Virus record (IMG/VR): IMGVR_UViG_3300001419_000004
Location: 5-64,004 of that record
DNA from: a virus
Reading direction: 5' to 3' (one strand)
Length of the DNA: 64,000 nucleotides
The notes under the pieces are model-generated. The model saw only the letters and a program-made list of their open reading frames with translations, searched no databases and was not told the DNA's origin. Below are positions 42,895 through 47,103 of this stretch, piece by piece. The position numbers and the translations under genes were made by a program. The stretch's first letter is position 1; every line of letters begins with the position of its first letter.

Positions 42895-43689
42895 CTATTG
42901 GCCATCATCCCAGGCCACGGCGACTCCGGACCCCAAAAGATTCGATGCTGTCGAATCAATGATTGTGTCCTTAATCGCAACATGGTTAAGTGCTGCCTCA
43001 GTAAAATCAGCCGCCACACCTGCAGTGTCTGAGTAGAATGTAGCCAACGATTTTACGCCATCGCATTTACGACTTCTTAGATACTCACCTATTTTCCCGC
43101 CGCTAGCTGCATATCCCTTGCGTATTCCTACCGCAGAGGGGTCAAAGGCAGCCATGTTCGAAGTTGGAATCGCAGTTTGCTTTTCTACTTCCTTAAGGTA
43201 TTCCTCACTGCAACCCATATAAGTTATAGTCCAATTATCGTCCTTTTTAGTTGATTCCACTAATTCACGCAGTGCTGGAATACTATAATGATGAGATGTA
43301 TTATCATCACCATCCGAGATAACAACCACAAGATAAGCATTATTCTCATCAGCAATGTCGGTCGTCTTTTGCAGCTTCTCGATTACATAACCAAGTGCAT
43401 CCCTCATGGCTGTCGAGCCACTAGGTCGGTAGTCTTCAGCTGTAGTTTCGTATAATTCAGCTGCTGGCTGGTTCCAAAGATGCTCATAAACATTGCCATT
43501 AAACGTCACTAATGACACAAATGTCTCCATATCTTCAGAATTCATTTTAATCTGTTGCACTTGTTCATTGAATCCAGCGATAGTCATATCAACACGATTT
43601 GGGTTATGATGGTCATTACCCATCGACCCAGACCTATCAAGGATAATCGCAACATACGTTCTGAGTGCGTCTTCTTTCTTAGTCATCAT
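42895..43689 (-). CDS. von Willebrand factor A domain protein
   Basis: 264 residues. A complete MIDAS is visible: DRSGSM at about 18-23, the GSTAMRD loop around 91-97 and VVVISDGDDN around 122-131. It binds a divalent metal and a protein partner. No signal or transmembrane segment is seen. It lies just after the 43698 gene, which may be its partner; many vWA proteins act with an ATPase, but none is nearby. Confidence 0.8.
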   Translation of the reverse strand: MMTKKEDALRTYVAIILDRSGSMGNDHHNPNRVDMTIAGFNEQVQQIKMNSEDMETFVSLVTFNGNVYEHLWNQPAAELYETTAEDYRPSGSTAMRDALGYVIEKLQKTTDIADENNAYLVVVISDGDDNTSHHYSIPALRELVESTKKDDNWTITYMGCSEEYLKEVEKQTAIPTSNMAAFDPSAVGIRKGYAASGGKIGEYLRSRKCDGVKSLATFYSDTAGVAADFTEAALNHVAIKDTIIDSTASNLLGSGVAVAWDDGQ

Positions 43690-45471: not shown

Positions 45472-45476
45472 AGTGG

Positions 45477-45507
45477 CTCCCCAGCGCGTAGCCTTCCCGC
45501 TGGGGAG
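45477..45507. terminator. GC-rich terminator hairpin
   Basis: Arms ctccccagcg and cgctggggag with an 11-nt loop. It ends the plus-strand 45178 gene and, on the minus strand, lies after the second tRNA-like unit. Confidence 0.7.
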
Positions 45508-45574
45508 CGATGTTGGTGATCATTATAGTAATGTCTACCAGTGCCTGTCTCGAACCATTAACGATTCCGTTTAA

Positions 45575-45697
45575 TCTGGAGTTTCAGTTTTAGACTGCCA
45601 CGCTCTACCATTGAGCTACCCTCGCAGGGTTGTTGGGTGCGTCGAAACGCGAGGGGCTTGATTTGAACAAGCACACAAGCAGTTAGTTTTCTCCAGA
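45575..45697 (-). tRNA. Putative circularly permuted tRNA-like gene (unit 2)
   Basis: Minus strand, 5' to 3': helix strand TCTGGAG, then ACTGC, then T-arm GCTTG-TTCAAAT-CAAGC (45656-45672), acceptor 3' strand CCCTCGC (45649-45655) and a 23-nt linker (45626-45648). Then come acceptor 5' strand GCGAGGG (45619-45625), TA, D-arm GCTC-AATGGTA-GAGC, GCAGT and CTCCAGA. Acceptor strands pair perfectly only in this inverted order; GCAGT/ACTGC and CTCCAGA/TCTGGAG also pair across the unit. No CCA is encoded and the anticodon is not clear. Confidence 0.6.
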
Positions 45698-45753
45698 ACT
45701 CGATTTAATGGCCAGCACAGTTGCTAAACCTGGAGCGATAGCTTGAACTTAAT

Positions 45754-45866
45754 AAACTCCTACGACCCTTGATAAGGGAGCCGCGCGTCTGCCATTCCGC
45801 CACCCCGCTAAGTAGGTTGTTACAGCATCAACAGCGGGGGCAGGATTCGAACCTGCACAGGAGTTT
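45754..45866 (-). tRNA. Putative circularly permuted tRNA-like gene (unit 1)
   Basis: Minus strand, 5' to 3': AAACTCCT, T-arm GCAGG-TTCGAAT-CCTGC (45840-45856), acceptor 3' strand CCCCGCT (45833-45839), 23-nt linker (45810-45832), acceptor 5' strand AGCGGGG (45803-45809) and Leu-type D-region TGGCGGAATGGCAGACGC. Then come an arm containing CCC-TTATCAA-GGG, and AGGAGTTT, which pairs with the opening AAACTCCT as a long variable arm would. The acceptor pairs over 7 bp. The linker shares length, GTT start and AACAACC with that of unit 2. The anticodon is uncertain. Confidence 0.6.
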
Positions 45867-45917
45867 TGTTTAAATCTAAGTTTAAATTTAAACTTACGCT
45901 CCAATATCACAAACCGC

Positions 45918-46649
45918 CTAAGCGGTTATAAACTCAAAAATTTGCTCTCCTTCTTTGACATCTTCAACATCTATAGTATTTGCTTGTTCGCGGGCAAACT
46001 TCACAGCATCTTGCAACTTTTGTACCTTCTCCAACATAGCTCGCTTCTTGTCGGCCGGAATCGCACCAGAGAAATAGACCGTAGTCCATTTTCCAACAGT
46101 AATATCTTCGCCTACCAATTGGACCTGGGCTGGATGTTCCTTCGTAGCTTCATACATAACCACCGGCTTTTGATGCTTCTTGGTCTTAATCTGCTCAGTC
46201 GGCTCAGTCTTGAAACAGCCCTTGTTCTCGTCATATGTCCAATCTTGTGCTGCATCAAGAGTCGGAAGTTTATCGATGAAAGTATGAATATCAACTAGCT
46301 GCTTCTCTAGGAACAGCAAGTGTGTAACAGGCACATTCTCAATAATTGTAAAACCACCCACAATCACATCTGCGGAAGCCTTACAATTCGCCGCATCTTG
46401 AGTCGCGACCACATCAAAAATACTGGTCCAAGCAGCGGCTGCGGCCTTTATAGCATCGTTAACATTCAACTGAACCTTTTTCGATTCGGCAGGTAAAGTC
46501 TCTCCCTCTGCATCAGAAGGCGTGTAAGTTCGCGAAATGCCATCAAGCAGTGCTGGCTTTTGCAGCATCTGATGCTGCTTGGTAACCTCTTTTTGAACGA
46601 CGGACTTGCGGCCAGTTGCGACGGCGATGATTTGGCATAACTTCGGCAT
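45918..46649 (-). CDS. Conserved uncharacterised protein
   Basis: 243 residues beginning MPKLCQIIAVATGRKS, a start I associate with an uncharacterised family (DUF7873-like) seen in bacteria and phages; this naming is from memory. The ends are helical and the centre strand-rich. A small hairpin overlaps its stop. The tRNA-like units follow it on the same strand and could share its transcript. Confidence 0.55.
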   Translation of the reverse strand: MPKLCQIIAVATGRKSVVQKEVTKQHQMLQKPALLDGISRTYTPSDAEGETLPAESKKVQLNVNDAIKAAAAAWTSIFDVVATQDAANCKASADVIVGGFTIIENVPVTHLLFLEKQLVDIHTFIDKLPTLDAAQDWTYDENKGCFKTEPTEQIKTKKHQKPVVMYEATKEHPAQVQLVGEDITVGKWTTVYFSGAIPADKKRAMLEKVQKLQDAVKFAREQANTIDVEDVKEGEQIFEFITA

Positions 46650-46725: not shown

Positions 46726-47103
46726 TTATTGTTGATGCCTGCGAAAATAAGCTGTGCTTAATGTCATACCGCGTAATAATCTGCGTTGCGCCCTATTGGT
46801 GCGGTTGGTGCGGTTGCGGTTGGTGCGGTTGGTGCGGTTGGTGCGATTAGATTTTTTAGCACGTTTGGGTTTGCGTTTCAATATCGGGTTGCGAGTATGT
46901 ACGGAAGATGAAGACTCTGTTATAGGTTGGTATTTATATAATTTTAGGGCTTTTAATACTGCATCCGGCTGTTCCTCAGCAATCTCCCGGAGAACCTTCA
47001 GAGCATGGCTAGATTGAGCAATATCTAAATCAGTAGATTCGTCTAATTCACTATCTTTAGTTCGCCTAGCTAAAGCCGATGCTATTATTCTAAATTCAAA
47101 CAT
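46726..47103 (-). CDS. Basic protein with Asn-Arg-Thr repeats
   Basis: 125 residues. MFEFRIIASALARR at the N-terminus; the C-terminal third has NRT repeats (NRTNRTNRTNRNRTNRTNR) after a Lys/Arg-rich stretch. It resembles a disordered DNA- or RNA-binding tail. The repeat number probably varies. The function is unknown. Confidence 0.55.
   Translation of the reverse strand: MFEFRIIASALARRTKDSELDESTDLDIAQSSHALKVLREIAEEQPDAVLKALKLYKYQPITESSSSVHTRNPILKRKPKRAKKSNRTNRTNRTNRNRTNRTNRAQRRLLRGMTLSTAYFRRHQQ
46798..46851 (-). repeat. 9-nt tandem repeat encoding NRT units
   Basis: Runs of ggtgcggtt on the plus strand, nearly identical at nucleotide level, which suggests recent expansion by slippage. Confidence 0.8.

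Follow-up and report, generated by a model that had tools for sequence, protein, structure and literature searches.

How should a DNA locus be read in which the parts of a transfer RNA (tRNA) stand in rotated order, and twice in succession? The question is raised by a viral stretch of 64,000 nucleotides (nt), positions 5 to 64,004 of IMG/VR record IMGVR_UViG_3300001419_000004 and hereafter the window, on whose minus strand, between 45872 and 45575, two tandem units each run from T-arm to acceptor 3' strand, linker, acceptor 5' strand and D-arm. The initial annotation took these units for permuted tRNA genes, and named a tmRNA-like two-piece RNA or another tRNA-like RNA as its fallback. It is the last of these options that we judge correct: with a probability of roughly 70%, the locus specifies a single structured non-coding RNA (ncRNA) of about 430 nt, which carries two tRNA-mimic heads, is partnered with a gene of the DUF7873 family, and does not give rise to tRNAs.

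The two units lie exactly where they had been described. Unit 1 opens with the T-arm GCAGG-TTCGAAT-CCTGC (45840-45856; this and all other features of the RNA are on the minus strand), followed by the acceptor 3' strand CCCCGCT (45833-45839), a 23-nt linker capping the acceptor (45810-45832), the acceptor 5' strand AGCGGGG (45803-45809) and, by sequence reading, a tRNA-Leu-like D-arm, GGCGGAATGGCAGACGC (45784-45802). Unit 2 repeats this order with the T-arm GCTTG-TTCAAAT-CAAGC (45656-45672), CCCTCGC (45649-45655), a capping linker of again 23 nt (45626-45648), GCGAGGG (45619-45625) and the D-arm TAGCTCAATGGTAGAGC (45602-45618). Both units have 7/7 acceptor pairs, an intact T-arm and an intact D-arm. 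In the 113-kb contig, units 1 and 2 are the only matches that satisfy every criterion of a strict scan for permuted tRNAs, which gave 0.0 matches per contig over 20 shuffled contigs. The outer helices proposed to close each unit are likewise present in the predicted fold. Around unit 1 these are TTGGAGCG (45897-45904) with CGCTCCAG (45730-45737), and AAACTCCT (45859-45866) with AGGAGTTT (45754-45761); around unit 2, CCATTAA (45705-45711) with TTAATGG (45555-45561), TCTGGAG (45691-45697) with CTCCAGA (45575-45581), and ACTGC with GCAGT. Direct reading and fold further suggest that unit 1 is attached via a variable-arm-like helix and has at the anticodon position an unusual hairpin, CGGCTCCCTTATCAAGGGTCG (45763-45783), which replaces the anticodon arm and departs from the canonical 5+7 design. 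In unit 2 an anticodon-like stem strand, GGCAG(T), forms a 5-bp stem (GGCAG/CTGCT) and passes into the conserved CTAAAACTGA (45584-45599), with ACTGA conserved. The overall fold z of the region is only -1.7.

Support for the permuted pairing comes from comparison of 163 non-redundant DUF7873 loci (phages, IMG/VR and GTDB genomes) yielding 214 unit candidates; so that pairing played no part in their selection, T-arm and D-arm served as the only anchors. The permuted acceptor pairs 7/7 in 194 of the 214 candidates and 6/7 in 8 more, over 106 distinct acceptor stems; acceptor strands exchanged between loci pair 7/7 in 5.3% and 6/7 in 13.7% of cases. Among 56 aligned units, which were chosen for pairing and are confirmatory only, 12/12 pairs vary on both sides, with a covariation of 0.867 vs 0.215 after shuffling and at most 0.22 in slid registers. 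A covariance model built from these 56 units with this phage left out, R1, gives the two window units 46.9 and 46.1 bits (E about 1e-12; 9e-13 and 2e-12, respectively). The acceptor stems recognized by the initial annotation are thus backed by covariation. The equal length of the two linkers, correctly noted there, is incidental, since linkers range from 5 to 83 nt in relatives, most loops being only 6-9 nt long.

The same comparison bears on the possibility of an ordinary intron-containing tRNA, made of the 5' half of unit 1 and the 3' half of unit 2, with the permuted pairing arising by chance. Run on the window, ARAGORN detects no ordinary tRNA; with introns allowed, it proposes a normal-order tRNA-Phe(aaa) at c[45648,45808] that contains a 69-nt intron and whose acceptor (GCGGGG against CCCTCGC) has 6/7 pairs. 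Because of this candidate, the earlier statement that the normal order gives no acceptor stem was too strong. The comparative data nevertheless reject that pairing: the normal-order acceptor is 7/7 in 2/95 relatives, vs 194/214 for the permuted one, and covariation thereby refutes an explanation whose chances we regard as negligible.

The RNA lies directly downstream of a gene for a 243-residue DUF7873 protein (45918-46649, minus strand, with its stop at 45918), which matches Pfam PF25283 over its full length (E 4.3e-103). This family is broadly distributed: tblastn retrieved 73 phage records (Gordonia, Rhodococcus, Arthrobacter, Rhizobium, Vibrio, Klebsiella, Serratia and cyanobacterial phages), and profile searches gave at least 286 loci in IMG/VR and at least 562 in GTDB, among them loci of Streptomyces, Actinomadura, Lentzea, Nocardia, Chloroflexi, Planctomycetes, Acidobacteria, Armatimonadetes and Deinococcales; the distribution leans to the best 80 matches per collection. 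A search of related phages for the same rotated units, as had been suggested, found one or two of them just after DUF7873 in 9/10 fetched phage loci, mostly in unannotated DNA, and the tenth (from a Microcoleus phage) has two units by covariance model about 1.8 kb further on. The strict scan detected units at 78/80 GTDB loci (two in 51, one in 27) and at 71/79 IMG/VR loci (two in 45, one in 26), and most of the loci that it missed were recovered by covariance model. In a distant contig (L007), where the upstream protein is 36% identical, a permuted unit occupies the corresponding position. The other neighbours of DUF7873 that were examined are mutually unrelated. In one class represented by 47 genomes, DUF7873 occurs in 15, of which 11 have adjacent units at E<=1e-8; one genome of this class (G034:C1:5191160-5191882) has a DUF7873 gene broken over several frames, with a permuted unit about 600 nt downstream. 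In several phages the DUF7873 locus sits inside a tRNA array, which fits a role in tRNA biology.

Comparative anatomy of 95 loci places the predicted ends of the whole RNA at 45476 and 45910, in the order 5' scaffold, unit 1, middle scaffold, unit 2, 3' conserved element and 3' hairpin. The locus L105 has the complete RNA on the strand opposite to DUF7873, and so the RNA constitutes a separate gene rather than a 3' untranslated region of DUF7873. Outside the heads, relatives conserve TATYGCTCYA, ACTGA, TTAAA[CT]G (72/95) and the 3' hairpin. In the window, TTGGAGCG stands within a conserved GAGCGcAAG element; CGCTCCAG belongs to the TATYGCTCYA element of the middle scaffold, carried here as CTATCGCTCCA and kept in relatives; ACTGA is present; TTAAACGG (45567-45574) is the TTAAA[CT]G element; and the hairpin GCTCCCCAGCG-GGAAGGCTACG-CGCTGGGGAGC (45476-45508) has the loop GGCTA. 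The loop motif of this long hairpin, GGN[CT]A, is found at 84/92 loci, vs 5.6% expected in random 11-mers. With the gene, two heads, TTAAACG and the GGN[CT]A hairpin, the window locus is a member of the DUF7873-linked double tRNA-mimic RNAs. At gathering thresholds, no Rfam 15 family covers the RNA at the 16 loci searched. Two other identities were considered and set aside: a coding 5' scaffold (GAG CGC AAG CTG AAA CTG, E-R-K-L-K-L), dropped because the frame is broken in relatives (L199, L205), and a permuted group I intron-exon arrangement, for which Rfam gives no group I match.

Do the heads become tRNAs? From true circularly permuted tRNA genes, excision of the linkers, together with cleavage of the outer ends and their ligation within the anticodon loop or the variable arm, would release two decoding tRNAs. 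Perfect permuted acceptor stems, the position within tRNA arrays of several phages, and a CCA that follows the discriminator in between a quarter and a third of the units all agree with this idea, as do the anticodon-like stems of many units, the 5-bp stem being perfect in 69/94 copies of unit 2 (about 20 when shuffled) and in 54/94 copies of unit 1 (about 18). However, the U33 position is mixed among relatives and no anticodon loop is conserved; at the would-be splice region the sequence passes instead into the conserved scaffold (CTAAAACTGA/ACTGA), and conserved sequence continues outside the units. What stands of the original proposal is consequently the permuted topology, upheld by covariation, and not the tRNA gene.

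An identical locus occurs in the 341,434-bp IMG/VR contig G001 (IMGVR_UViG_3300005512_000001), a T4-like jumbo phage (Gp23 capsid, terminase) that already possesses about 40 ordinary tRNAs (L033, L034, L019, L020), and whose own genes, the part searched, yielded no RtcB, Rnl2-type ligase or tRNA-splicing endonuclease (PF01139, PF09414, PF01974); the search for T4 Rnl1 was uninformative, its control being silent. Splicing of the bulge-helix-bulge (BHB) type was rejected, as no conserved bulge-helix-bulge was seen and the endonuclease was not found in the phage. We consider two spliced tRNAs very improbable. Further permuted matches in the 341-kb contig (130085 and 198524) lie inside open reading frames and lack supporting structure. 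As regards the ordinary tRNAs of this phage, many have no encoded CCA, with ATT-ATG following directly, and a polynucleotide kinase/phosphatase-like protein is encoded near a tRNA cluster (L034:9387-10322).

Closer to the preferred reading is a two-piece RNA resembling permuted tmRNA (transfer-messenger RNA), in which RNase P and 3' processing would remove the linker, so that each head would end in a CCA that is charged or can be charged. Permuted tmRNA has the same gene order. This possibility fits the anatomy described above and conflicts with it only as regards capped heads. NCCA is enriched at the loop start, the discriminator is A in 91/102 unit 1 copies, and discriminator plus CCA is encoded in 39/102 unit 1 loops and 26/102 unit 2 loops, which keeps a processed two-piece form in play. 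Against it, loops of 6-9 nt prevail among relatives, the window linkers lack a CCA where it would be expected, a tag reading frame was not found, and RF00023 does not match the locus, whether searched in gathering mode or by E-value. On balance we consider such processing unlikely. A tmRNA of the RF00023 family (89 bits) does occur, unannotated in the record, within the tRNA array of Gordonia phage Phendrix (L036:1072-1600).

A different kinship is suggested by the bacterial Y RNAs of the YrlA class. The head of YrlA (6CU1) has been described by structural comparison as a circular permutation of tRNA (PMC13355120), so that the topology itself is already known; according to a review (PMC8394870), DusA and TruB act on YrlA, whose head binds PNPase, and YrlA has also been proposed to serve as a decoy against an anticodon nuclease (PMC7790460). 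The phage has a Ro60/TROVE gene of its own (L033:14189-15499), followed by five tandem Y-RNA-like units (gene and array together at L033:14189-16600, about 311189-313600 of G001), three of which have a permuted tRNA-like head, and in one of these three the anticodon arm (TTTAGGA) looks intact; it was this array with the same head that pointed to Y RNA. The sole Rfam family to align is YrlA (RF02553), which cmscan in E-value mode matches along its entire length with unit 2 of the window.

Divergent YrlA-class Y RNAs, with the head as effector module and Ro60/TROVE bound to the outer stem, would account for this likeness and for the shared permutation. However, the alignment reaches 28.8 bits (E 9e-4), for unit 2 only, vs a gathering score of 69, under which the phage's own Ro60-linked units also remain (at most 42.9). 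GATGG and TGTTCC are present in 5/5 Ro60-linked units, whereas a single one of 95 DUF7873-linked RNAs has both and the window has neither. Furthermore, the Ro60 gene is about 58 kb from the RNA locus, and TROVE was undetected in 4/8 bacterial genomes carrying DUF7873 and the RNA, which in several genomes is thus independent of Ro60. Membership in the YrlA class is accordingly doubtful, about as improbable as tmRNA-like processing; a head ancestry in common with Y RNA heads is possible.

Several observations weigh against a two-headed RNA dedicated to DUF7873. Within the above-mentioned class of 47 genomes, R1 also matches in 10 genomes without DUF7873; the module alone is not specific to this gene, and these matches indicate that R1 does not tell the family apart from Y RNAs or adjacent tRNAs. 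The protein is not basic (median pI 6.4), and its confident predicted model (pLDDT 92.9) has no significant Foldseek match in PDB or among viral models; searches of PDB by sequence and of NCBIfam returned no match either. With a non-basic protein and a fold of no known match, RNA binding can only be presumed. The encoded discriminator and CCA exceed what a plain capping loop needs. On the RNA side, RNAalifold applied to the full 95-locus alignment recovered T-arms, acceptors and D-arms and not the 5' outer helix, an anchored test of the GAGCG/CGCTC helix was noisy, and the scaffold fold beyond the heads is resolved only in part.

Having weighed these points, we still favour the double tRNA-mimic RNA, and the way in which it might work can be outlined. 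In each head, T-arm, acceptor stem and D-arm would fold as in tRNA, with the acceptor capped by a loop, and the chain would enter and leave via the anticodon-like stem (in window unit 1, via the variable-arm-like helix); this entry and exit, together with the capped acceptor, would make the gene order look circularly permuted, with splicing or ligation unnecessary. The heads would rest on the conserved scaffold ending in the GGN[CT]A-loop hairpin. DUF7873 most likely binds the RNA, forming a ribonucleoprotein (RNP). The heads could then engage enzymes recognizing the tRNA elbow and acceptor, such as modification enzymes, nucleases or PNPase; that they serve as tether or decoy for tRNA-binding enzymes, by analogy with Y RNA and Ro60, is a tentative proposal. 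Somewhat better than even are the odds that DUF7873 and its two-headed RNA constitute an undescribed, widespread, Ro60-independent RNP of Actinomycetota, Chloroflexota, Planctomycetota, other bacteria and phages, acting on tRNA or the translation machinery by one or both heads, these being perhaps acceptor-cleaved to CCA ends.

Some other features of the locus and the phage may be recorded. About 2 kb downstream of the RNA and on the same strand, the window encodes a stand-alone von Willebrand A protein (42895-43689; MIDAS, DRSGSMG), a domain also present in Ro60, and at 46726-47103 lies a low-complexity open reading frame with an NRT repeat run (TNRTNRTNRTNR). Elsewhere, the jumbo phage encodes a Cpn60/TCP-1 chaperonin (L031:7963-9597) and a large terminase subunit split by an intein-like (Hint) domain (L029:12159-14561).

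In the literature at hand, the permuted tRNA mimics of bacteria are only the Y RNAs of the Ro60 protein; a search of open-access literature on DUF7873 and on phage-borne permuted tRNA came back empty, although a description elsewhere is possible. The RNA described here combines two heads with a scaffold of its own and a different, unstudied protein neighbour, and is carried by numerous bacterial chromosomes as well as by phages that infect several groups of hosts. DUF7873 thereby gains a testable role, that of an RNA partner, and capped-acceptor tRNA mimicry is suggested as a general bacterial device. Direct testing is feasible, since the RNA is present in Gordonia phages and in strains of Streptomyces and Actinomadura that can be cultured.

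Three known systems invite comparison. With the permuted tRNA genes of red algae and archaea the RNA shares the order of T-arm, acceptor 3' strand, linker, acceptor 5' strand and D-arm; it differs in that no decoding anticodon loop is present, no BHB motif is shown, and a scaffold replaces the splice junction. Like permuted two-piece tmRNA it is a bacterial structured RNA with acceptor strands in permuted order, whereas neither a tag reading frame nor an Rfam tmRNA match was found at the locus. The third system is YrlA (RF02553; PDB 6CU1; partner Ro60/Rsr), whose head is also entered via the anticodon stem and has a capped acceptor, being thus permuted with respect to tRNA, and which occurs in phages too. 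YrlA, however, consists of one head on a Ro60-binding basal stem, about 90-150 nt in all, while the RNA described here bears no Ro60-linked motif and joins two heads to another scaffold, with a GGN[CT]A hairpin at its 3' end and DUF7873 as its neighbour.
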